A stretch of 10,043 nucleotides of DNA from Campylobacteraceae bacterium (GTDB lineage Bacteria > Campylobacterota > Campylobacteria > Campylobacterales > Sulfurovaceae), in NCBI GenBank assembly GCA_027002665.1, contig JALWZK010000326.1:1-10043 (forward strand), in the 5' to 3' direction. A program made the position numbers and the translations under genes. Below, in pieces: positions 1-10,043 of this stretch; position 1 is the first letter of the stretch; every line of letters begins with the position of its first letter. The notes under the pieces were generated by a model. It was given only the letters and a program-made list of their open reading frames with translations. It searched no databases and was not told the DNA's origin.

Positions 1-105
1 GCTATATTGAGCTGAAGCTATTTCACTATGCTTAGATGCTAAATCGTCCATCTCAATAAGTAAAAATATTAAAGAAATTTCTATTAAAAATATTATAATC
101 TGCAT
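1..105 (-). CDS. Partial hypothetical protein with N-terminal hydrophobic segment
   Basis: This is an open frame of 35 codons from an ATG at 105 (minus) that runs off the left edge without a stop. Residues 2-17 are almost all Ile, Leu and Phe with one Glu and one Ser, which looks like an N-terminal membrane anchor or signal anchor. A polar stretch follows, rich in Ser, Ala, Glu, Asp and His. I do not recognise the family from so little sequence. A perfect extended -10 box lies about 30 nt upstream, so the gene probably has its own promoter rather than depending only on read-through from purT, which ends 70 bp away on the same strand. The Shine-Dalgarno sequence is weak (AAG-type). No plus-strand frame across this stretch stays open for more than about ten codons, which favours the minus-strand reading. 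Confidence 0.45.
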   Translation of the reverse strand, partial: MQIIIFLIEISLIFLLIEMDDLASKHSEIASAQYS

Positions 106-132
106 TTAAAATTCTTAATTTGGGATATATTA

Positions 133-141
133 ATTATAGCA
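133..141 (-). promoter_or_regulatory. Extended -10 promoter element upstream of the partial gene
   Basis: On the minus strand this reads TGC followed by TATAAT, a perfect extended -10 box. It sits in the 70-bp gap between the end of purT and the start of the partial gene, with the expected transcription start about 20 nt before that gene's ATG. There is no clear -35 box, which is common for sigma-70 promoters in Campylobacterota. Confidence 0.5.
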
Positions 142-175
142 GATTACACTTAAATATTAAGATTATTTTAAGTTT

Positions 176-1342
176 TTATCTATCACTAATTGAACTCACT
201 ATCTCTAAGGCTCTCTTTTTAGCCTCTTCTATATTATCATCTATGACCAAAGCTACTGCCAATCTCCTTCCAATATGTGACTCCGGTTTACCAAAAATCC
301 TTACAAATGAGTTTTTAGAGAATGCAGAGTTTGGAACCTCTATTTTAGGATTTTTAGACTCACTCTTAGCCTTATATGCTCCACTTGCACCTGCTCCATA
401 GAGTGTAAAATCTAAAGGTAGCCCTAAGACTGCTCTAATATGTAGTGCAAATTCACTTTGAGATTGAGTTATAAGTGTTACCATTCCTGTATCGTGTGGT
501 CGTGGGCTAAGTTCTGAGAAATATACCTCATCATCTTTGATAAAAAATTCAACTCCAAATATTCCTCTTCCACCTAAGCCATCTGTCACCTTTTTTGCAA
601 TCTCCTTAGCCTTCTCTAACGCCTCTTGACTCATATTCATCGGTTGCCAAGATAAGATATAGTCTCCATCTCTCTGAAGGTGACCTATTGGCTCACAAAA
701 TATGGTCTCGTTCTCTGTTCGTGTGGTTAATAGTGTAATCTCATAATCAAAAGATATAAACTCCTCTACTATAAGCTCACTAGCATCTCCTCTAGCCTCT
801 TTTGCTATCTCCCAAGATTTTTCTATATCTTCACTGCTTCTAACAATACTCTGCCCATGCCCTGAACTACTCATTACAGGCTTAATAACTGCTGGAAGAC
901 CAATCTCATTGACAGCCTCTCTTAACTCATCTAAGCTCTTTACAAATCTATATCCACTCGTCTTTACACCAAGCTCTTCAGAGGCAAAAATTCGTATATT
1001 TTTTCTATTCATAGTCTTATTGACAGCTTCAGCATTTGGAATTACATGAAATCCCCTCCTTTCAGCCTCAAATAGTGCCTCAATAGATATGGCTTCAACC
1101 TCTGGTAAGATATATGTAGGCTTCTCCTTTTCGATAACCTCAATAACCTCATCTCTATCTAACATATTGATAACATAAGCCCTATTTGAGACCAAATGGG
1201 CAGGAGCATTTTTATACTTATCAACAGCAATTACCTCAATTCCCAATCTTTGAGCTTCAATAGCTACCTCTTTACCAAGCTCACCTGAACCGAGTAACAT
1301 TATCTTAATAGACTCTTTCTGTAGTGGAGTAGTAAATAACAT
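176..1342 (-). CDS. purT: Formate-dependent phosphoribosylglycinamide formyltransferase (PurT)
   Basis: PurT makes formyl-GAR from GAR, formate and ATP in the third step of de novo purine synthesis, as a folate-independent alternative to PurN, in the cytoplasm. The 388-residue product aligns from end to end with the roughly 392-residue E. coli enzyme by recognition. It has an N-terminal nucleotide-fold segment with GSGELGKE (residues 18-25), an ATP-grasp domain with [11 protein letters not shown] (154-164), and the metal-binding pair E265 and E277 in VEFF and [13 protein letters not shown]-terminal RIFGKPE segment is followed by RRLAVAL (348-365), which carries the conserved Lys and Arg that contact GAR. 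The ATG at 1342 is preceded by AAAGG at good spacing and matches the family N-terminus. It is separated from upstream rpsU by a terminator, with a TACAAT -10-like box at 1371-1376, so it is probably transcribed alone. Nothing is missing. Confidence 0.96.
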
Positions 1343-1370
1343 CTGTAACCTTTATATAAAAATTTGGGAT

Positions 1371-1376
1371 ATTGTA
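1371..1376 (-). promoter_or_regulatory. Candidate -10 box for purT
   Basis: TACAAT on the minus strand is one mismatch from the sigma-70 consensus and lies about 28 nt upstream of the purT ATG, downstream of the rpsU terminator. No -35 box is evident. It is assigned by position and motif only. Confidence 0.35.
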
Positions 1377-1386
1377 TCGAATTAGA

Positions 1387-1419
1387 TTAAAAAGTAGTAA
1401 AACCACTTAAAAAAGTGGT
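1387..1419 (-). terminator. Rho-independent terminator of rpsU
   Basis: A perfect 7-bp stem (ACCACTT / AAGTGGT, arms 1413-1419 and 1402-1408) with a four-base loop is followed on the minus strand by a T-rich tract interrupted by a few other bases (TTTACTACTTTTT). It begins 10 bp after the rpsU stop codon. The T tract is on the minus-strand side only, so it terminates rpsU and insulates purT. Confidence 0.8.
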
Positions 1420-1428
1420 CTATTTATA

Positions 1429-1641
1429 TTATAGTCTTGCTTCGTATCTTCTAAGCATATATAGCTTTTTAAGAATTTTCTTACGGGTAGCAATCTTCTC
1501 TTTCTTTCTTCTCTCTGTTGGTGGCTCATAGTGTTGTCTTGCTCTGGCTTCTGTAACGATTAAATTTCTATCGCACTGTCTTTTAAATCTTCTATAAGCT
1601 TCATCAAATGACTCTTTAGGACCAACTTTTATTCCCGGCAT
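1429..1641 (-). CDS. rpsU: 30S ribosomal protein bS21
   Basis: bS21 is a small basic protein of the 30S platform, next to the 3' end of 16S rRNA, that helps translation initiation. The 70-residue product starts [25 protein letters not shown], with conserved spacing of the FDxAxRRFKRxC motif and a very basic C-terminal half ([16 protein letters not shown]) ending in RRYEARL. Length matches the family (about 70 residues). The open frame extends 48 codons further upstream to 1785, but the ATG at 1641 is the family start and is preceded by an exceptional Shine-Dalgarno sequence. The gene is monocistronic in appearance, with its own promoter candidate and terminator, and is divergent from nnr. In many bacteria rpsU sits with dnaG and rpoD, which is not the case here. 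Confidence 0.97.
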
Positions 1642-1646
1642 TCTCT

Positions 1647-1655
1647 TCACCTCCT
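1647..1655 (-). promoter_or_regulatory. Very strong Shine-Dalgarno site of rpsU
   Basis: The minus strand reads AGGAGGTGA, a nine-base uninterrupted match to the anti-Shine-Dalgarno end of 16S rRNA, with 5 nt to the ATG. It fixes the start of rpsU at 1641. It is much stronger than the sites in front of the other genes in this window. Confidence 0.85.
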
Positions 1656-1670
1656 CTCTTATCAAAAATT

Positions 1671-1690
1671 TTCTATAAAAATCTATAGAA
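1671..1690 (-). repeat. Small inverted repeat in the rpsU leader
   Basis: A perfect 7-bp inverted repeat, TTCTATA (1671-1677) and TATAGAA (1684-1690), with a 6-nt loop. It lies between the presumed rpsU transcription start (about 1700) and the ribosome-binding site, so it could form a weak hairpin in the 5' leader. It is AT-rich and may be chance. Confidence 0.35.
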
Positions 1691-1707
1691 GTGATAAAAT
1701 GGATAAA

Positions 1708-1713
1708 ATTATA
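1708..1713 (-). promoter_or_regulatory. -10 box of the rpsU promoter
   Basis: A perfect TATAAT on the minus strand about 67 nt upstream of the rpsU ATG, in an AT-rich upstream region. No convincing -35 hexamer is present. It predicts a leader of about 60 nt. Confidence 0.5.
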
Positions 1714-1742
1714 TCTAAAAAATATTATGATTAGGTGATTTG

Positions 1743-1751
1743 TGATAGAAT
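1743..1751 (+). promoter_or_regulatory. Extended -10 box of the nnr-hisD promoter
   Basis: TGA followed by TAGAAT, an extended -10 with one mismatch in the hexamer, lies 44 nt before the ATG at 1796. Because it overlaps the alternative upstream GTG at 1742, it also argues that translation starts at 1796. Together with the rpsU -10 box it makes the 154-bp gap a divergent promoter region. Confidence 0.45.
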
Positions 1752-1795
1752 TTGTTTTATTAAAAATAAAATATTTATATTTCAAGAGAGTTAGA

Positions 1796-3223
1796 ATGCA
1801 ACCACTATATAAATCATGTTATGAAATGGATAAGAGATGTTATAATGAGTATCTTCTAACTGAAGATATATTAATGGAACACGCCTCTATGGGCATGGAG
1901 AGATATATAAGAGAGAATTTTAAGAAGGGAAGTTCTGTCTTAATTGTTGCTGGAGTTGGAAATAATGGAGCTGACGGCATAGTCTTAGCTAGGCTCTTAG
2001 AGAGTGACTATAGAGTCTCTCTATATATTCCTTATGGAGTAAAATCTCCTATGGCAAAACTTCAACTATCACGAGTTAAGAGATTAAATGTAGGTATTAT
2101 AGATGAGGTTAGAGATGCAGATATTATCGTAGATGCAATATTTGGAGCAGGACTTAGTAGAGAGTTAGATGAAAAGACAAGAAGGCTTATTGTTAAGTTG
2201 GAGGAGTTAAATGGATTTAAGATAGCGTGTGATGTTCCAACAGGTATCGATATTGATGGGAATCCACTACCTATGGCATTTATCGCCAATGTTACCATTA
2301 CTATGGGGGCATTAAAAGAGTCACTCTATTCCGATATGGCAAAAGATTTTGTAGGAGAGATAATCCGTATAGACTTGGGTGTAAGCCACAAGAGATATAT
2401 AGATGGATTTCATACTGATTTATATCTCTTAGAGCAGAGTGATATGAGACTTCCCCATAGAAATTTCTCTAAAAAGACACATAAAGGGAGTTTTGGACAT
2501 CTATCTGTAGTTGTAGGAGAGAAAGAGGGGGCAGGTATAATGTCTGCCTCTTCAGCTTTAAGATTTGGAGCTGGACTTGTTACGGTTGTTGGATGTTTAT
2601 TCAATACAACACTACCTATATATATTATGAATGGTTTAACTCTCCCTGAAAAAACTACTGCAGTAGCTTTTGGAATGGGATTTGGATATGATTTTGAGGA
2701 GGAGATAGTTGATGAGATAATAGAGAGTGATTTACCAATAGTTCTGGATGCAGATATATTTAGTTCGGAGCGAATCTTAGAGTTTCTGGAGAATCGAAAT
2801 AGAGAGATAGTTCTAACTCCACACCCAAGGGAATTTGTAAGCTTATGGAATATGAGTATAGATGAGCCAATTAATATATCTATCTTACAGGCTAACCGTT
2901 TTAATAAAGTTAGGGAGTTCTGCTCTCTATTTCCAAATGTTACCCTACTACTGAAGGGAGCTAATATGATTATTGGCAAAAATGATAGACTATTTGTAAA
3001 CCCTTATGGAACTTCTAAACTCAGTAAAGGTGGGAGTGGAGATGTGCTTACGGGAATTATAGGCTCACTCCTATCACAAGGTTGGAGTGGATTGGACTCT
3101 GCAATCTCTGCATCTCTAACTTTAACAACTGCTTCAAATCTATATAGTGGAGCAGACTACTCTATGCTTCCGACTGATATAATAGAAAATTTAACCAAAA
3201 TTACGCAATTAGATAATAATTAG
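1796..3223 (+). CDS. nnr: Bifunctional NAD(P)H-hydrate epimerase / ADP-dependent dehydratase
   Basis: This enzyme repairs damaged NAD(P)H. The N-terminal domain (about residues 1-215 of 475) interconverts R and S hydrates; the C-terminal ribokinase-like domain (about 225-475) dehydrates the S form using ADP or ATP. Epimerase marks are [11 protein letters not shown] (residues 51-61), DAIFGAGL (113-120) and CDVPTGID (145-152). Dehydratase marks are KTHKGSFG (227-234), TPHPREF (341-347), LLKGAN (385-390) and GGSGDVLTG (412-420). The open frame begins at a GTG at 1742, but the ATG at 1796 gives the family N-terminus, has an AGAGAG site 5 nt upstream and lies downstream of the presumed promoter. 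The stop is 10 nt before hisD, whose ribosome-binding site overlaps it, so the two are co-transcribed. Confidence 0.93.
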
Positions 3224-3233
3224 GAGATAGAGA

Positions 3234-4523
3234 TTGAAAATATTTAATACCAACGATAGAGAGTTCAATACTCAATTTAGTGAGCTTTTAAAAAGAGGTG
3301 CTATGGATATTGATGAGGTGAGTATCACAGTTAAAAATCTATTAGATGAGATTAGAGAGAGTGGAGATAGTGCATTAAAAGCTCATATAGGTAGATTTGA
3401 TAGATGGACTCCTACGGATAGTAGTGATTTAATGGTATCTGTTGAGGCAATGGAGAGAGCATATAGAGATTTAGATAGCCCTTTGAGAGATGCACTACAT
3501 CTGGCTTATGATAGAATAGAGAGCTACCATCAAAAACTTATGCCCAAATCTTGGATTGATTTTGAAGATAATGGAACTATATTGGGGCAGAAGGTAACTC
3601 CAGTCGATAGAGCAGGACTATATATTCCCGGTGGAAAAGCCTCCTATCCCAGCTCTCTACTTATGAATGCAATTCCCGCTACTGTTGCGGGTGTTAAAGA
3701 TATTATTGTATGTAGTCCAGCCCCAGATAATGAGTTAAATCGACTATTTCTCTCAGCTTGTTATCTATGTGGAGTTAAAAAACTATTTAAAGTTGGTGGA
3801 GCTTCTGCTATTGGGGCTATGGCTTATGGAACAGAGACTATTCCTAAAGTTGATGTTATTACAGGACCTGGAAATATATTTGTAGCAACAGCTAAAAAGT
3901 TAGTCTATGGTGAAGTTAATATTGATATGATAGCAGGTCCCAGCGAAATTGGAATATTGGCAGATAGTTCTGCAAGAGCCGATTATATAGCTATGGATTT
4001 ACTATCACAAGCAGAGCATGATGAGATGGCAAGTTCTATCTTAATTACAACAGATGAAAACTTAGTTAGAGAAGTTTCTATAAAAGTAGAAGAGTTTTTA
4101 ACCACTTTACCAAGAGAGAGAATAGCAAGAGCATCTATTGAGAATAGAGGTGCTATTATTTTAACTGATAGTATGGATAGAGCTATATCCCTTATGAATC
4201 AGATAGCACCGGAACACTTGGAGATAGTTACCCAAAATCCTATGGAGCTACTTCCAGAGATAAGACATGCAGGAGCTATATTCTTAGGAGAATATACACC
4301 AGAGCCAATTGGTGACTATATAGCTGGACCTAATCATACTCTACCTACAGGTGGAACAGCAAAATTCTATTCGCCTCTTAGTGTAGATAATTTTCTAAAG
4401 AAATCCTCAATTATCTCTATGAGCAGACAAGGTATAGAGGAGATTGGAAGAGAGTGTGCAATGATAGCAGATATGGAGGGATTAACTGCACATAAAAACT
4501 CAGTTACAATAAGATTGGATTGA
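3234..4523 (+). CDS. hisD: Histidinol dehydrogenase
   Basis: HisD performs the last two steps of histidine synthesis, oxidising L-histidinol to L-histidine with two NAD+ in the cytoplasm. The 429-residue product matches the usual length (434 in E. coli). The zinc ligands are visible: Q259 and H262 in SQAEHD, D361 in PIGDYIAGPNHTLPT and H420 in LTAHKNSV. The catalytic pair E327-H328 lies in APEHLE. The NAD-binding GPGN is at 211-214. Translation begins at TTG, supported by GGAG seven nt upstream and by the family N-terminus; no in-frame ATG fits better. It is the second gene of a unit with nnr. Its TGA is immediately followed by the stop of the convergent mipA-like gene, so any transcription end must lie inside that gene. 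Confidence 0.96.
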   Translation: MKIFNTNDREFNTQFSELLKRGAMDIDEVSITVKNLLDEIRESGDSALKAHIGRFDRWTPTDSSDLMVSVEAMERAYRDLDSPLRDALHLAYDRIESYHQKLMPKSWIDFEDNGTILGQKVTPVDRAGLYIPGGKASYPSSLLMNAIPATVAGVKDIIVCSPAPDNELNRLFLSACYLCGVKKLFKVGGASAIGAMAYGTETIPKVDVITGPGNIFVATAKKLVYGEVNIDMIAGPSEIGILADSSARADYIAMDLLSQAEHDEMASSILITTDENLVREVSIKVEEFLTTLPRERIARASIENRGAIILTDSMDRAISLMNQIAPEHLEIVTQNPMELLPEIRHAGAIFLGEYTPEPIGDYIAGPNHTLPTGGTAKFYSPLSVDNFLKKSSIISMSRQGIEEIGRECAMIADMEGLTAHKNSVTIRLD

Positions 4524-5321
4524 CTACTCAAATAGATTTTTAATTTTAGTTGAGAACTCCCTATCGAATAGATAGGCGATAAATAGTCCACTATATACTC
4601 CATAACTTCTATTAAATAGTGGACTATCTTCTGATACTGCCCCATTTAAATCGTAATATCTTATAAATGCTCCTGCCCAGACTCTATTGAACTTTTTAGA
4701 TATGCCGATAGATGTCTTATACCCCATATATCCAGCCTCTGCTCTATATTGAGATCTATCTTTTGTTGCAAAACGGCTCTCTACACCATAGATATAGTTT
4801 TGAAATCTACTATCTGCCCATACCCCTCCAGTTTGAAGTTGGAAGAGATACCCATTTAAAAAGTTATAATCTATTGCAAATCGTGGATCACACTTATAAC
4901 CTCTATATCTCATCTCCTTAAAATTTGTAGATACAACTGCACGAATTGGGAAATCTAACTTTAGAGTTAATCCATCTTTTTTATATAGCTCATATATAAT
5001 AGCAGGTCCTATCTCTCCAGCAATATCGAGGTCACTCATTCCCTCTCTTGCTCCTGAACTGTGAACAGGTAGCGAACCACTCATACTCAACCTTAAACTA
5101 ACTCTATCCATACTAAATAGTCTCTGTTTTAATCCATCTTTATCAATATCCATTGTTTTACTATGGTAATCTATATATGGGAATGGTAAAATGGTATTAT
5201 TTGTATGGTTAGAGCCTATATAGTCTGGATAAGTGATACTCCCAATACCTATACCCAAATCTAATGTGGAGCTATATAAAGATGATATTATCATTATAAT
5301 AGTTATAAATTTTTTTTTCAT
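4524..5321 (-). CDS. MipA/OmpV family outer-membrane protein
   Basis: The product is 265 residues. It starts with a classic signal peptide (MKKKF, then a hydrophobic stretch, probable cleavage near residues 17-19). A beta-barrel pattern of alternating aromatic and polar strands follows. Family-typical marks are YPDYIGS (31-37), PFPYIDY (46-52) and GEIGPA (102-107). Members of this family include MipA, a scaffold linking murein hydrolase and synthase, and OmpV porin-like proteins; the exact role here is not predictable. The start is preceded only by a weak AAAG, but the signal peptide supports it. It is divergent from the secretion operon, with 148 bp between the two starts, and could be a functional neighbour at the outer membrane, though that is inference. 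Confidence 0.82.
   Translation of the reverse strand: MKKKFITIIMIISSLYSSTLDLGIGIGSITYPDYIGSNHTNNTILPFPYIDYHSKTMDIDKDGLKQRLFSMDRVSLRLSMSGSLPVHSSGAREGMSDLDIAGEIGPAIIYELYKKDGLTLKLDFPIRAVVSTNFKEMRYRGYKCDPRFAIDYNFLNGYLFQLQTGGVWADSRFQNYIYGVESRFATKDRSQYRAEAGYMGYKTSIGISKKFNRVWAGAFIRYYDLNGAVSEDSPLFNRSYGVYSGLFIAYLFDREFSTKIKNLFE
4560..4576. repeat. 6-bp inverted repeat near the hisD/mipA-like junction
   Basis: CCTATC (4560-4565) and GATAGG (4571-4576) are separated by five bases, within the last codons of the minus-strand gene. No T tract follows on either strand, so it is not a standard terminator, although it is the nearest compact hairpin to the end of the hisD transcript. Confidence 0.3.
4583..4627. 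repeat. Perfect 12-bp inverted repeat inside the mipA-like gene
   Basis: ATAGTCCACTAT (4583-4594) and ATAGTGGACTAT (4616-4627) are exact reverse complements, with a 21-nt spacer. They lie within codons 232-247 of the minus-strand gene, downstream of the hisD stop when read on the plus strand. No T tract follows on either strand. Confidence 0.75.
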
Positions 5322-5351
5322 ACTTTATTATATCTCTTTATCTTTAATATC

Positions 5352-5380
5352 TATATTTAATCTGATATTTTTTTTGTAAA
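5352..5380 (-). promoter_or_regulatory. Candidate promoter of the mipA-like gene
   Basis: On the minus strand TTTACA (5375-5380) matches five of six bases of a -35 box, and an AATATA/TATAGA-like segment follows about 17 nt later (5352-5357). A perfect TATAAT also lies at 5327-5332, but only 5 nt from the ATG, too close for a normal leader. The assignment is tentative. Confidence 0.3.
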
Positions 5381-5407
5381 TTAAATAGTGTCGGAGTGAA
5401 TTTAATT
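5379..5407. repeat. 8-bp inverted repeat overlapping the sapC promoter
   Basis: AATTAAAT (5379-5386) and ATTTAATT (5400-5407) flank a 13-nt loop, AGTGTCGGAGTGA, which is markedly less AT-rich than its surroundings and contains two AGTG copies. The right arm touches the -35 region of the sapC promoter and the left arm touches the possible -35 of the divergent gene. This position would suit an operator, but AT-rich repeats of this size can occur by chance. Confidence 0.4.
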
Positions 5408-5434
5408 AATATTTAAGTGAACCATAGTTATAAT
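5406..5434 (+). promoter_or_regulatory. Sigma-70 type promoter of the sapCDEF-like operon
   Basis: TTAATA (5406-5411) as a weak -35, a 17-bp spacer and a perfect TATAAT (5429-5434). Transcription would start near 5441, giving a leader of about 29 nt before the TTG start. Short gaps and an overlap downstream suggest that this promoter drives the whole secretion operon. Confidence 0.55.
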
Positions 5435-5469
5435 TTGGTGTTGATATAGATTATTATGGAGAAAGATAT

Positions 5470-6864
5470 TTGGCTCGGAAGATTCGACTTTTTATTAAAA
5501 ATGTAGCTCAACATATCATTTTAAAAAGTATTGATAATATGTTTAGAGATGAGTTAGATTATATCCTTTTCCTATCTATGATAAGAGATATAAAGGGTAG
5601 AATAGATATAGCGATACACTCTTATGTGTTAATGCCAAACTATTTAGAGTTTATAGCCACTCCTTCAGATGAGACAACTATATCTAAGTTTATGCAATCT
5701 CTTGGACGACGATATGTGGGATACTATAATAAAAAGTATAACAGAAGAGGAACTCTATGGGAGGGGAGATATAAATCATCTCTTGTTGAAGATAGTTTCA
5801 TCTTTGATGTTATGAGATATATTGAGTTGAGACCTATGAGAGAGGGATTGGTAAAAGATGCCTCTCTATATAGATATAGTAGTATCCGTAGTAATCTATT
5901 AAACGAAAAAGATAAGATAGTAACTCCCCATAGAGTATATAGAGATTTAGGTTATAGAGATGAAGATAGAATAAAACGGTATTCTCAAATTTTCTACTTG
6001 GAGACAAATAGAGAGCAATTTATAGTAAGTTGTTTAGAAAAACAGCTTATTACAGGTAGCAAATCATTCGTTTTAAAATTAGAAAGATTGATAGGTATAA
6101 CTCTCAGAGAGAGGCAGAGAGGACGACCGAGAAAAAAATTAGAACAAGGAAGAAAAAGTATGTATAAAAAATTGGTAGTCTTGGATAAAAAGAGACATAG
6201 TGACTTAAAAGTTAAACCTATGAGAGATTTAAATTTTGCAAGAGGAAACTCATTTATTCCCCTTCTTGCAACTGAAGTGGCTCTAATTGGTTCAACCTTT
6301 CCGATTGTTTTTACAGATAATGAAAATCCATCATTAGTCGCTTTAGTATCTCTTGGTGGAGAGAGTTTGGCAATTAACCATGAGGGGAAATGGATTACAA
6401 ACTATATTCCAGCTTTCATTAGAAGATACCCTTTCGCAATTGCACAGACAGAAGATAATCCTCAACAGAAAGTTATCTTAATAGATGAGGAGTCCGATTT
6501 AGTATCAACCATAGAAGGGAATGAGTTATTCTTGGAAGATGGAACTCAGAGCGATACACTAAAAAATGCTATTAATTTTTTAACAAATTATGAGAATCAA
6601 TTTACCATTACTAAAAATGTGGCTAAGGTTATTAGGGATAGTGGTATCTTGGAAGAGAGAGAGATAGCAGTTGGTGAAGGTGATGAGAAGCAGGTCCTAG
6701 TAAATGGATTTAAGATTATAGATAGAGAGAAGTTAAATAGTTTAAGTGATGATATATTGGCAGATTGGGTTAGAAAAGGTATTATTACTCTAATTGATGC
6801 CCATATTAAATCTTTGGAAAATATTAATACCCTCTTTGAGTTAGCCCAACAGAGACAGAGTTAA
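5470..6864 (+). CDS. Fusion protein: degenerate REP-associated tyrosine transposase (Y1) domain + SapC domain
   Basis: This 464-residue protein begins at TTG, with GGAGAAAGA 5 nt upstream, and opens MARKIR as RAYT proteins do. Residues 1-150 are a Y1 transposase domain with VLMPN (53-57), GRRYVGYYNKKYNRRGTLWEGRYKSS (79-104) and RYIELRPMREGLV (116-128). The RAYT C-terminal part follows, with an RGRPRKK AT-hook-like tail (217-223). The HUH metal site is lost: positions 57-60 read N-Y-L-E instead of N-H-x-H. Y117, at the position of the family nucleophile, is kept. Residues 231-464 are a full SapC domain (KKRHSDLKVKP, IPLLATEV, FPIVFTDN, YIPAFIRRYPF, DAHIKSLENINTLF). SapC is linked to S-layer protein export in C. 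fetus; its biochemical role is unknown. The gene is first in the operon, 27 bp before the ABC transporter gene. Both halves share codon use, so the fusion is not recent. I infer a non-catalytic DNA- or RNA-binding module. Confidence 0.88.
   Translation: MARKIRLFIKNVAQHIILKSIDNMFRDELDYILFLSMIRDIKGRIDIAIHSYVLMPNYLEFIATPSDETTISKFMQSLGRRYVGYYNKKYNRRGTLWEGRYKSSLVEDSFIFDVMRYIELRPMREGLVKDASLYRYSSIRSNLLNEKDKIVTPHRVYRDLGYRDEDRIKRYSQIFYLETNREQFIVSCLEKQLITGSKSFVLKLERLIGITLRERQRGRPRKKLEQGRKSMYKKLVVLDKKRHSDLKVKPMRDLNFARGNSFIPLLATEVALIGSTFPIVFTDNENPSLVALVSLGGESLAINHEGKWITNYIPAFIRRYPFAIAQTEDNPQQKVILIDEESDLVSTIEGNELFLEDGTQSDTLKNAINFLTNYENQFTITKNVAKVIRDSGILEEREIAVGEGDEKQVLVNGFKIIDREKLNSLSDDILADWVRKGIITLIDAHIKSLENINTLFELAQQRQS
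6146..6162 (+). promoter_or_regulatory. Possible internal translation start for free SapC
   Basis: AAGGAAG is followed, 9 nt after AAGGA, by an ATG (6160-6162) that is codon 231 of the fusion. The peptide from there begins MYKKLVVLDKKRH, resembling the start of stand-alone SapC proteins, and runs 234 residues to the same stop at 6864, close to the usual SapC length of about 250. It could allow a second, transposase-free product, or be a relic of the original sapC start. Confidence 0.4.
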
Positions 6865-6891
6865 AATTAATCTTATAGGAGCAAACCGTTA

Positions 6892-8664
6892 ATGGCAAAT
6901 ATGCAATTACCTCATCAGAGAAGAGAAACAGGAGAGTTAAGAAAGGCTCTATTTAAAGCTAAAATAGCATTTTTTATGGCAGGTTTCTTTAGTCTATTTA
7001 TAAATCTTTTAATGTTAGTTCCTGCACTATATATGTTGCAACTCTATGGGAGGGTTGTAACGAGTAGAAGTGAAGAGACTCTCTATATGCTTACAGGCTT
7101 AGTTATTGTCCTCTTTATAACCTTAGCCCTCTTAGAGATGGTTCGCTCAAGAATACTTGTCCGAATTGGAAATAAGATGGATAAGATATTAAATCAGAGG
7201 GTTTTTGATGCCCTATTTAAATTGGCAGAGAAATATCCCGGAAAGGCTTCAGCTTCGGCACTATCAGATTTAACACAGATTAGACAATTTATGACAGGTA
7301 ATGGACTATTTGCCTTTTTTGATGCTCCATGGATGCCGATATATATTGCACTTCTATTCTATTTCCATGAAGATTACGGATATTTTGCAATTTTTGCGGC
7401 AATTGTCTTAATAATTATTACGATTATTAATAACTACTCTACAAAAAGTAAATTGGATGAAGCAAATAGACATAACTCATCATCTATGATGTTTGTAAAT
7501 ACAAATCTTAGAAATGCTGAAGTTATCCACGCTATGGGTATGAAAGATAATATTAGAAATATCTGGCAAAATAAACACTATAGTTTCTTAAGAGCTCAAA
7601 GTGAAGCAAGTGCTCATGCTGGAGTATGGGCAAATATCTCTAAAATTACCAGAATGATGTTTCAATCTCTAATGTTGGGATTGGGGGGATATCTGGTTAT
7701 TCAAAATGAGGTTGGTGCTGGTATGATGATAGCAGGTTCTATTGTTATGGGTAGAGCATTAGCCCCACTCGATTTAATGGTAAATACTTGGAAACAGTTT
7801 AGTAGTGCAAGAACATCTTATAAGAGATTAAATGCTCTCTTAAATGATTTTCCAAAAGAGAAGGAGTATATGGAGCTTCCACCACCAACGGGCGAACTTC
7901 TATTGGAGCAGGTTGTAGTAGTCCCTCCAAATAGTAAGATCCCATCTCTTAGAGGTATCTCAATGCAGATTAATAAGGGAGATGTTGTTGGAGTTATTGG
8001 ACCCAGTGCAGCTGGAAAATCATCTCTTGCAAGAGCCATACTTGGTGTCTGGCCACTTCAAAATGGAAAAGTTAGACTTGACGGAGCTGATATATCCCAA
8101 TGGGATAAGGTAGCCCTCGGGAAATATATAGGCTATCTCCCGCAAGATATAGAGCTGTTTGATGGAACTGTGAGTCAAAATATAGCTCGGTTCAATAAGA
8201 TTGACCCTAAGAGCGTTGTCAAAGCCGCACAGATGGCAGGTGTTCACGATATGATATTGAGATTACCCGATGGATATGATACAAAAATAGGTGTTGGGGG
8301 TTCAACTCTATCCGGTGGACAGAGACAGAGAATAGGAATAGCAAGAGCAATATATGGGGACCCCGTGCTGGTTGTCTTAGATGAGCCAAATTCAAATCTT
8401 GACGAGGCTGGGGAGGCTGGACTACTTCAAGCAATTAACTATTTAAAACAGATAAAAAGCACCGTTATCTTAATTACACATAGAGCAAATATACTCCAAG
8501 TTACAAATAAGATAGCCGTTTTAAAGGGTGGACTATTGGAGATGTATGGAGCCACTAATGCTGTCTTAGCAAAATTAAGAGCAAATAATGCACCTAAACC
8601 TAAGCCGACTCCAACCAAGGGACCTGTTATGTCTAAACCAACACTTAGCAAACCAAGTAGTTAA
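6892..8664 (+). CDS. sapD: Type I secretion ABC transporter, PrtD/SapD-like permease-ATPase
   Basis: This is the inner-membrane motor of a type I secretion system, a fused half-transporter that works as a dimer. Residues 25-310 hold the membrane domain, with hydrophobic segments near 26-48, 65-85, 138-158, 164-182 and 255-290. There is no N-terminal C39 peptidase domain. The ATPase domain carries Walker A GPSAAGKS (370-377), Q-loop Q418, signature LSGGQRQR (473-480), Walker B VLVVLDEP (492-499) with the PrtD-type NSNLDEAGE following, and H-loop H530. These are the marks of the PrtD subgroup, which exports substrates with uncleaved C-terminal signals. The tail (about 566-590) is low-complexity, rich in Pro, Lys, Thr and Ser, and unusual. 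The start ATG has TAGGAG about 10 nt upstream; an alternative ATG lies three codons in. The next gene begins 9 nt after the stop. The symbol is assigned by analogy with C. fetus. Confidence 0.93.
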   Translation: MANMQLPHQRRETGELRKALFKAKIAFFMAGFFSLFINLLMLVPALYMLQLYGRVVTSRSEETLYMLTGLVIVLFITLALLEMVRSRILVRIGNKMDKILNQRVFDALFKLAEKYPGKASASALSDLTQIRQFMTGNGLFAFFDAPWMPIYIALLFYFHEDYGYFAIFAAIVLIIITIINNYSTKSKLDEANRHNSSSMMFVNTNLRNAEVIHAMGMKDNIRNIWQNKHYSFLRAQSEASAHAGVWANISKITRMMFQSLMLGLGGYLVIQNEVGAGMMIAGSIVMGRALAPLDLMVNTWKQFSSARTSYKRLNALLNDFPKEKEYMELPPPTGELLLEQVVVVPPNSKIPSLRGISMQINKGDVVGVIGPSAAGKSSLARAILGVWPLQNGKVRLDGADISQWDKVALGKYIGYLPQDIELFDGTVSQNIARFNKIDPKSVVKAAQMAGVHDMILRLPDGYDTKIGVGGSTLSGGQRQRIGIARAIYGDPVLVVLDEPNSNLDEAGEAGLLQAINYLKQIKSTVILITHRANILQVTNKIAVLKGGLLEMYGATNAVLAKLRANNAPKPKPTPTKGPVMSKPTLSKPSS

Positions 8665-8673
8665 GGATTTTTG

Positions 8674-9966
8674 ATGAATGGACAAGATAACCGTATGCCA
8701 TCAGATAATACAACACCGGCAATTATTTTTGGATTGATAGTTGTTATTACTGTATTTGGATTTATTGGTGGTTGGATGTATTATGCTCCACTCGCTTCCA
8801 CTTCTGTGGCAGTTGGACAGGTAGTAGCAGGTGGAGTTAAACAGAAAGTGCAACACTTAGATGGTGGAAGTATAAAGAAAATCTATGTTAAAGATGGAGA
8901 TGTTGTAAAAAGGGGTGATATATTAATAGAGTTAGATGATATTCAGATAAAGGAGAATTTAAACATTCTAAACTCCCAATATCAAACTGCTCTCGCTACA
9001 TATGCAAGATTAAAAGCTCAAAGAGATAATCTGAGTTCAATAGATTTTCCAAAGGGAATTAAAAGGAGTATAATTGAAAATCAGATAAATATATTTAATA
9101 TTAGTAAAAAATCTCTCAGAGATGAGGATTTAATTACTAAAAGAAGGATATTACAGATTAAAAAACAGATAGTTAGTTTAAAAGCTCTAATTAATAGTAA
9201 TAAGAAGAGGTTGAGAGCAATCTCTAAGCAGAAAGAGGAGCAGGAGATTCTATTTGCTCAACAACTTGTAGATAAGCTTAAAATTCAAGAGTTGGAGAGA
9301 GAAGCAAATAGAATAGAGGGGGATATTGCAAGTAAAATAGCCGATATTGCAAGACTTAGAGAGCAGATTAATGAGTTAGAAACTCAGAAGCTTTTAAGAA
9401 AAAAGAAGTTTAAAGAGGATATCTTAGATAAATTGGTTAAAACTAAATCTCAAATAGAGGATTTAAAATCAAAAATTATTGCGACTGAGGATAAATTAAA
9501 AAGAACTAAAATTAAAGCTCCTATTGCTGGAACAATCGTGGGACTTAAATTCCATACCATAGGTGAAGTTATAAGAAGAGGTGAGGATATTTTAGAGATA
9601 GTTCCAAAAGACTCTAAACTACTGATTGTTGCAAAAGTAAAAACAACCGATATAGATAAGGTTAAGGTTGGACTCTTAGCACAGGTTATGTTCCCTGCTT
9701 TTAATATGAGAAAGATACGATTTATAGAGGGTAGGGTAATTAGTGTATCTGCTGATAGCTTTATAGACAAGGCTACCCATAGACCATACTATGAAGCAAA
9801 AATAGAGGTCACAAAAGAGGGATTAGATGAGCTAAAAAAACATAATTATACATTAGTTGCAGGAATGCCAGCTACTGTAATGATACAACTTGGAACGCGA
9901 ACAACACTTGAGTATATACTTAAACCATTTCAAAATATGTTAATTCGAGGATTTAATGAAGAGTAA
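8674..9966 (+). CDS. sapE: Type I secretion membrane fusion protein, HlyD/PrtE/SapE-like
   Basis: This is the periplasmic adaptor linking the ABC transporter to the outer-membrane channel. The 430-residue product has a short cytoplasmic N-terminus, one membrane segment (about residues 16-38) and the first lipoyl half-motif GGSIKKIYVKDGDVVKRGDILIELD (64-88). A long charged coiled coil spans about 90-275. The second lipoyl half, KAPIAGTIVGLKFHTIGEVIRRGEDILEIVP (281-311), and a beta-barrel follow, ending in the family signature GMPATVMIQLGTRTTLEYILKPF (397-419). The frame is open from a TTG at 8671, but the ATG at 8674 is 5 nt from AAGGAT and is the better start. The ribosome-binding site overlaps the stop of the transporter gene, and the 3' end overlaps the next gene by 11 nt, which suggests translational coupling. 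The symbol is by analogy. Confidence 0.92.
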   Translation: MNGQDNRMPSDNTTPAIIFGLIVVITVFGFIGGWMYYAPLASTSVAVGQVVAGGVKQKVQHLDGGSIKKIYVKDGDVVKRGDILIELDDIQIKENLNILNSQYQTALATYARLKAQRDNLSSIDFPKGIKRSIIENQINIFNISKKSLRDEDLITKRRILQIKKQIVSLKALINSNKKRLRAISKQKEEQEILFAQQLVDKLKIQELEREANRIEGDIASKIADIARLREQINELETQKLLRKKKFKEDILDKLVKTKSQIEDLKSKIIATEDKLKRTKIKAPIAGTIVGLKFHTIGEVIRRGEDILEIVPKDSKLLIVAKVKTTDIDKVKVGLLAQVMFPAFNMRKIRFIEGRVISVSADSFIDKATHRPYYEAKIEVTKEGLDELKKHNYTLVAGMPATVMIQLGTRTTLEYILKPFQNMLIRGFNEE

Positions 9967-10043
9967 AATTATATTTTTAACCCTATTTTTATGGTGTAGC
10001 TATAGTAGTGCAGAGATTTTAACTATATCGGAAGCCTATAATC
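9956..10043 (+). CDS. sapF: Partial TolC-family outer-membrane channel protein (SapF-like), N-terminus only
   Basis: The ATG at 9956 opens a frame of 29 codons that runs off the right edge. It overlaps the end of the membrane fusion protein gene by 11 nt in another frame and has GAGGA 4 nt upstream. The peptide begins with Lys-Ser-Lys and a hydrophobic stretch (IIFLTLFLWC), then SYSSA-E as a probable cleavage site near residue 19. It continues ILTISEAYN, which resembles the first helix of TolC-type proteins after the signal peptide. Family assignment rests on this short motif plus the conserved order ABC transporter, fusion protein, TolC in type I secretion operons. The Cys in the signal region is not in a convincing lipobox. 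Confidence 0.75.
   Translation, partial: MKSKIIFLTLFLWCSYSSAEILTISEAYN

Follow-up and report, generated by a model that had tools for sequence, protein, structure and literature searches.

Introduction

RAYTs have been called domesticated transposases, with an unclear role in their hosts, and we know of no function established for SapC in type I secretion. The SapC protein of Campylobacter fetus (PF07277) is encoded by the first gene of a type I secretion operon, sapCDEF. Here, we analysed a 10,043-nucleotide stretch of DNA from a Campylobacteraceae bacterium (family Sulfurovaceae in GTDB; GenBank assembly GCA_027002665.1, contig JALWZK010000326.1, positions 1 to 10,043; hereafter, the window), in which a RAYT domain and a SapC domain share a single reading frame at the head of a type I secretion operon. 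This fusion gene apparently gives rise to two proteins and is immediately preceded by a hairpin, and therefore the locus suggests that a former transposase now controls the secretion operon. We consider it probable that the RAYT has been domesticated, is nuclease-dead in most lines, and now acts as a hairpin-binding (auto)regulator of the operon, with one gene giving two products. The original prediction for this DNA had proposed either a domesticated regulator or a link between secretion and nucleic acid; the regulator is the better supported of the two. The prediction mentioned neither the internal start of SapC nor the hairpin described below.

The fusion protein resembles the RAYT/TnpA_REP proteins (E. 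coli TnpA_REP, PDB 4er8) and the TIRYT proteins in its fold, in the position of the Y1 tyrosine, in helix alpha3, and in having a hairpin near its gene. It differs from RAYT/TnpA_REP in the absence of the HUH histidines (in the window and in 29 of 34 fusions), in the presence of a C-terminal SapC domain, and in facing a single site before its own gene rather than many repeats. As in the C. fetus sapCDEF operon, the SapC domain scores above the family cut-off and belongs to the first gene of a type I secretion operon, whereas known stand-alone SapC proteins, mostly about 220-270 amino acids long, have neither a RAYT half in front nor an internal start. A further parallel is offered by TldR proteins, which originated from nuclease-dead TnpB. 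TldR proteins are described as RNA-guided transcription factors (PMC13418256); the fusion would likewise be a nuclease of the IS200/IS605 world turned regulator, but from the TnpA/RAYT side, and it would read a hairpin. Finally, an internal ribosome-binding site and start that yield the C-terminal part of a protein are reported for Cas11b (PMC11899642) and for single-gene, two-polypeptide endolysins (PMC9430671); unlike in those genes, the internal start of the fusion apparently marks where a formerly independent gene began.

A probably nuclease-dead RAYT half with a retained fold

The fusion gene (5470..6864, forward strand) is one uninterrupted frame of 464 amino acids with a TTG start. Its RAYT half (5470..6111, residues 1-214) has the Y1 (IS200-like) transposase domain and fold, with a Y1_Tnp match at residues 21-119 (35.4 bits; Pfam cut-off, 23), and its SapC domain (PF07277; 6181..6834, residues 238-455) scores 209.7 bits against a cut-off of 28.9. 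The halves are joined by a flexible linker (6112..6159, residues 215-230) that includes the RAYT tail RGRPRK and has a predicted local confidence (pLDDT) below 50 at residues 215-228. The predicted arrangement, a single frame with a RAYT half and a SapC half at the head of a type I secretion operon, is thus borne out by the open reading frame and by Pfam and NCBIfam searches, and the Pfam search of the full protein that the prediction had called for placed both domains above their cut-offs. The protein falls short of the NCBIfam model REP_Tyr_transpos (43.1 bits; cut-off, 80).

The prediction erred in calling the RAYT complete. The motif VLMPN runs on as Y-L-E (5641..5649, residues 58-60, forward strand) where active RAYTs show H-x-H, so that both catalytic histidines are missing; this place aligns with MPDHVHL of 2xm3, a solved IS200/IS605-type transposase. 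Among 119 readable close sequences, residue 58 is Y in 104 and residue 60 is E in 114, and H occurs at neither position. The Y1 position is better preserved: Tyr117 of the window (codon 5818..5820, forward strand) stands at the place of the catalytic tyrosine, which in the same sequences is Y in 105, H in 9 and F in 5. With both HUH histidines lost, DNA cleavage is no longer expected of the RAYT half in the window and in most other lines. For the window and for the 119 close sequences we can therefore reject the idea that the secretion locus holds an active transposase, but not for four loci with intact HUH (L063, L070, L073 and L077; loci and genomes are given by our own L and G numbers). Overall, of 34 non-redundant fusions, 29 have lost the motif, one keeps half of it (L080) and these four keep it whole, and on the SapC tree the loss apparently occurred more than once.

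In the fused line, the fold, the helix and a cognate-looking hairpin persist. Structure-library matches of the window protein span residues 1-207, and helix alpha3 of the predicted structure (5677..5736, forward strand; residues 70-89, TISKFMQSLGRRYVGYYNKK) corresponds to the DNA-binding helix of RAYTs; the same helix of L063 was aligned to 4er8. Its conservation is 0.85 in fusions, third among 11 segments, and the RAYT half is under purifying selection, the lines without HUH included.

A probable internal start for SapC

A ribosome-binding site, AAGGAAG (6146-6152), followed by an ATG (6160-6162), lies within the frame (6146..6162, forward strand) and is the proposed start of stand-alone SapC: the ATG encodes residue 231, where stand-alone SapC begins. 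The signal is conserved. GGA is found at -14..-5 of the internal ATG in 36 of 37 non-redundant genes (all but L005), against 13 of 241 other internal methionines, and the HUH-intact L070, L073 and L077 have the site and the ATG as well. Just upstream of the ATG, arginine is encoded by AGG in 19 of 22 cases, against 47 of 681 elsewhere, and glycine by GGA in 14 of 14, against 269 of 804 elsewhere; it is therefore the bases that are kept at the internal site, and not residues alone. Indeed, the residue encoded across GGA varies (R, G or D) while the bases are constant. The mean pairing energy at the site is -5.5, compared with -3.1 in synonymous shuffles. Two stand-alone Campylobacter sapC genes begin with AGGAAAAAAATG, a string found inside many fusions.

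Of the 34 non-redundant fusions with a readable start, placed by homology, 32 begin the long form with TTG and 2 with GTG. Because the ribosome site and ATG of SapC persist in frame while the long form begins with TTG or GTG, the gene probably makes both RAYT-SapC and SapC. If both are made, it exemplifies a gene fusion that retained the old start of the downstream gene and hence has two products.

A covarying hairpin in front of the gene

An imperfect hairpin (5355..5408, forward strand), matched by a covariance model, precedes the fusion gene, with arms at 5359-5369 (AATCTGATATT) and 5387-5397 (AGTGTCGGAGT). Between hairpin and gene we read a promoter-like sequence (5412..5434, forward strand) composed of TTTAAGTG (5412-5419) and TATAAT (5429-5434). 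The strings TTAAAG or TTAAGT and TACAAT stand 3' of the hairpin in relatives, as judged by eye, and TTTAAGT is what we take to be a Campylobacter promoter element. In the window, TATAAT comes after the hairpin, so that a transcript starting there probably does not include the hairpin. A site just upstream of a promoter-like sequence would be compatible with repression and activation alike. A terminator of the upstream gene was considered and rejected for the window, since that gene, mipA, is divergent.

In the relatives, an inverted repeat, mostly imperfect and with the consensus ACTATGGCACT ... AGTGTCGGAGT, lies 60-110 nucleotides before the start. In an alignment of 30 rows, its arms pair at 85.5%, against 77.7% in shuffles, with a covariation of 0.303 against 0.187; 10 of the 15 pairs show two-sided changes, and sliding the hairpin partner lowers pairing to 30-50%. 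Wobble pairs at two positions (U.G in 16 and G.U in 18 of the 30 rows) favour the coding strand in many loci. The covariance model (R1) matches the window hairpin at 48 bits (E 1.6e-9), the window copy being in its training set, and also picks up the hairpin, in the same position, in loci outside its training (L035, L037, L050, L063 and L066), of which L035 is the other copy of L006. Across 13 whole genomes, each with 150 candidates scored, R1 found 13 sites above 40 bits, every one before a fusion gene: G361 has two fusions and two sites, and G079 has no site above 40 bits. The 12 stand-alone SapC loci gave one chance-level match (17.5 bits). Of the remaining matches, a weak one in G000 (L125) lies within an unrelated gene, and one in G404 (L126) adjoins genes that we took, without a domain search, for acetate-metabolism genes.

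The site appears to be solitary. The pattern AATAGTGTCNGA occurs once in the genome of the window, and, with 150 of 2289 candidates scored in an incomplete assembly, this genome gave no second R1 match above 26.8-27.3 bits and no repetitive extragenic palindromes or terminal inverted repeats flanking the gene on both sides or scattered elsewhere.

Of the stand-alone RAYT loci inspected in the same order, most carry GGGGTCAG-type repeats about as far ahead of the gene start. At most of the 11 stand-alone RAYT loci, GGGTCAGG-like repeats precede the gene, and at several they also follow it. In the fusion hairpin, the right arm (AGTGTCGGAG, AGGGTCAGATAC) resembles these repeats in place and orientation, and we infer that it derives from a RAYT terminal repeat. 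The stand-alone RAYTs of L022, L025 and L027 have GGGGTCAGGTGAACG-type terminal repeats upstream and an inverted copy right after the stop codon. TIRYT terminal repeats are likewise reported to lie before and behind the gene (PMC6006769), and the motif GGGGWSAS is given for TIRYT repeats in PMC3733652.

Probable loss and erosion of the RAYT half

Two departures from the common architecture bear on its history. At L063, the fusion is not at the head of the operon, and its internal ATG is ATA, with no ribosome site; on the opposite strand, the secretion operon begins with a free-standing sapC that has a ribosome site of its own, and the hairpin lies 54-107 nucleotides before this sapC in the usual orientation. 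In the SapC tree, which was built without rows L015 and L086, the L063 fusion is basal to all fusions (support 99/95; long branch), and the stand-alone SapC of L063 nests among the 31 fusions of a clade (94/59). Because it is placed inside the fusion clade, this SapC most likely lost its RAYT half.

In Campylobacteraceae, SapC was found in 13 of the 150 genomes drawn, 5 times stand-alone and 8 times with an N-terminal remnant of about 130-165 residues, and the two kinds together form the sister group of the fusions (94/82). In one hhalign comparison, the remnant proved homologous to the RAYT half (97.5%, E 5e-12); the C-terminal RAYT helices are absent, and helix alpha3 ranks first of the 11 segments in conservation (0.75). 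AGGA and the internal ATG are retained in 8 of 8 remnant genes, the internal methionine in 12 of 13 remnant proteins, and the 7 readable starts comprise 4 TTG, 2 GTG and 1 ATG. The left arm, ACT[CT]TGGCACT, lies 74-85 nucleotides before 6 of the 7 remnants with upstream DNA and before none of the 5 stand-alone genes. One remnant genome is that of Campylobacter sputorum, where R1 also matches before the remnant gene (L087). Judged by these sequences, what Campylobacter retains is an eroded RAYT remnant, the internal start and, in many cases, half of the hairpin site. None of the proteins named in a further protein search was from C. fetus. The link to DNA inversion at the C. fetus sap locus that the prediction had raised as speculation found no support, and a domain lacking the HUH histidines would not be expected to cut DNA.

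Proposed function and alternatives

We propose that a RAYT gene became fused in frame before sapC, whose ribosome site survived, so that one mRNA would give RAYT-SapC from the TTG and a short SapC from the internal ATG. Most lines, that of the window included, would then have lost both HUH histidines, with the RAYT fold and the hairpin-binding helix retained. The RAYT half would bind the lone hairpin ahead of its own promoter and thereby regulate the sapC-prtD-hlyD-tolC operon, and the SapC part may couple this regulation to the state of the secretion machine. A more specific version, advanced tentatively, is that a single-target, hairpin-reading autoregulator carried on SapC reports the secretion state to its own promoter, and that the remnant SapC proteins of Campylobacter descend from such a unit. 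With this fused line, a regulatory role of a Y1 protein is directly testable in the culturable Sulfurimonas denitrificans, and the fusion gives a handle on SapC.

Several observations weigh against this proposal. The hairpin was first spotted by eye; the best inverted repeat of a single upstream region is significant in 13 of 33 cases, some of them elsewhere, and the window's is not. The alignment (A3) comprises 30 of 34 upstream regions, with L006, L037, L080 and L063 dropped, and the shuffle controls ignore relatedness. R1 has no match in L080 or at the 11 stand-alone RAYT loci; 11 of the 13 scanned genomes had supplied rows to it, and, of the 2017-9071 candidates in each genome, 150 were scored. 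Not every locus shows the strand preference: L058 scores equally on the two strands, and L060 is marginally better on the minus one. At the internal site, the synonymous-shuffle values of single genes are individually weak (0.046-0.65). Among the remnants, P0129 has I in place of the internal methionine, L123 starts with ATG, L120 lacks the left arm, the right arm is eroded with only L113 scored well by R1, and L112/L114 and L117/L118 are near-identical pairs.

Of the alternatives, the one that survives best, though unlikely, is that the RAYT half binds nucleic acid elsewhere, such as cargo mRNA or single-stranded DNA, for localisation or co-translational delivery, the hairpin being an incidental remnant of a transposon end. 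The retained fold and helix alpha3, on a secretion protein, would suit such a role, and a hairpin binder might also bind RNA. Against it, the hairpin covaries and is retained with the RAYT half across several families, and half of the site accompanies the eroded remnants and none of the stand-alone Campylobacter sapC genes.

It is rather improbable that the RAYT half is a passive leader that passes ribosomes to the internal sapC start and has no function as a protein. No feature of the gene is more constant than the internal ribosome site and ATG, the Campylobacter RAYT half is heavily eroded yet open, and the L063 SapC nested among fusions does without it; purifying selection on the RAYT half and the preferential conservation of helix alpha3 in the remnants speak against a mere leader.

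We give little credence to the hairpin being the operator of an unrelated regulator, with the RAYT half serving protein-protein contact only. Hairpin and RAYT are linked in sequence, so co-retention may partly be inheritance, and the original activity was dropped, as the repeated HUH loss shows. At L063, however, the hairpin stands before a sapC without a RAYT half and has a RAYT-SapC gene next door, and the wobble pairs favour one strand in many loci, as expected for Y1 proteins and unlike double-strand operators.

The gene might also encode an ordinary two-domain protein, a single product with a functionless internal ATG, since translation of the short form is our inference and AGGA-like strings are favoured by linkers rich in lysine and arginine. 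The codon bias at the site and its constant bases under shifting residues make this improbable, as does L063, whose exceptional fusion is accompanied by a separate sapC.

There is a slight probability that, in the HUH-intact lines, the fused RAYT still nicks DNA and keeps or copies its palindrome, with the domain and site decaying elsewhere and having no regulatory part. HUH is intact in 4 of 34 fusions, and 3 of these 4 (L070, L073 and L077, of group f20) have perfect palindromes at the operon head, of 17, 21 and 26 base pairs and with the core GGGTCAG or GGGTCGG, compared with 1 of the 29 other fusions with upstream DNA (L055). These three fusions belong to one clade, however, and in their genomes (G171, G368 and G332) there are no exact copies of the arm beyond the palindrome's own two, and one-mismatch copies are no commoner than in the control; moreover, lines without HUH conserve the domain and the pairing of the hairpin. 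The three loci offer a chance to compare active and dead RAYTs at like sites.

Last, although the window is the whole of one contig in a fragmented assembly (343 contigs, 86% complete), an assembly join or frameshift artefact can be dismissed as vanishingly improbable, because both domains occur in 114 of the 120 best homologues and the identical architecture in the single-contig genomes G171, G367 and G404.

Distribution and genomic context

The assembly of the window has one SapC and one Y1 match, both in the fusion gene. A homologue search gave 466 homologues at E<=1e-3, of which the best 120, the window's own protein included, were used for the domain counts given above; the other 6 of these have SapC alone in the precomputed domain list. 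Names among the best 120 of 466 include Sulfurimonas denitrificans DSM 1251 and metagenome-assembled genomes of Campylobacterota, and database labels among them read putative transposase, hypothetical or SapC family protein. A draw of 398 genomes of the order, searched at E<=1e-30, contained 15 with a full-length fusion and 2 more with fragments of it at the edges of contigs. For two of the 15, the matched region is listed as containing one stop, yet their open frames measure 485 and 461 residues. The reservation that the architecture might be common in Campylobacterota was thus apt, given this full-length spread and the eroded version in C. sputorum and other Campylobacter. Literature searches on RAYT or IS200-like transposases with SapC, and on SapC with type I secretion, gave no description of the fusion; PMC6006769 notes that a few unexpectedly long proteins, fusions or annotation errors, were dropped.

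G361 has a second fusion gene with its own hairpin (L103, contig C7, 1068-1933), which sits behind a Calx-beta/trypsin-like fragment and a 145-amino-acid gene, parts of the region being masked. In a Sulfurimonas metagenome-assembled genome (L059:8001-9383), the frame is interrupted within the RAYT half and the SapC half is open.

Downstream of the fusion, on the same strand, the window encodes a type I secretion ABC permease/ATPase of the PrtD type (6892..8664; TIGR01842, 743 bits) and an HlyD-family membrane fusion protein (8671..9966; TIGR01843, 341.6 bits). ABC protein and adaptor thus lie in the same operon, in an order conserved in relatives, and of the 36 loci that come from named genomes, 34 have the ABC homologue after the fusion; the exceptions are L042, where the locus ends, and L063. 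The window stops after hlyD, and an OEP-family gene, a candidate for the TolC-like outer membrane factor, follows in L043, with like-sized genes in other loci. On the other side, the gene for a MipA-family outer membrane protein (4524-5321, reverse strand) is divergent from the fusion; among the compared loci, a mipA gene is found at this place only in L033 (and in a second copy, L004). Directly 5' of the fusion in L043 (7416-7883) lies a gene of about 150 amino acids with no Pfam match over the cut-off, and like-sized genes occur in other Sulfurimonas loci. Behind tolC of L043 (13772-17381) follow genes that, by eye, resemble nucleotide-sugar and glycosyltransferase genes, with like-sized genes in L040, L044, L047 and others; a glycosylation region is reported to adjoin the C. 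fetus sap locus (PMC4943207).
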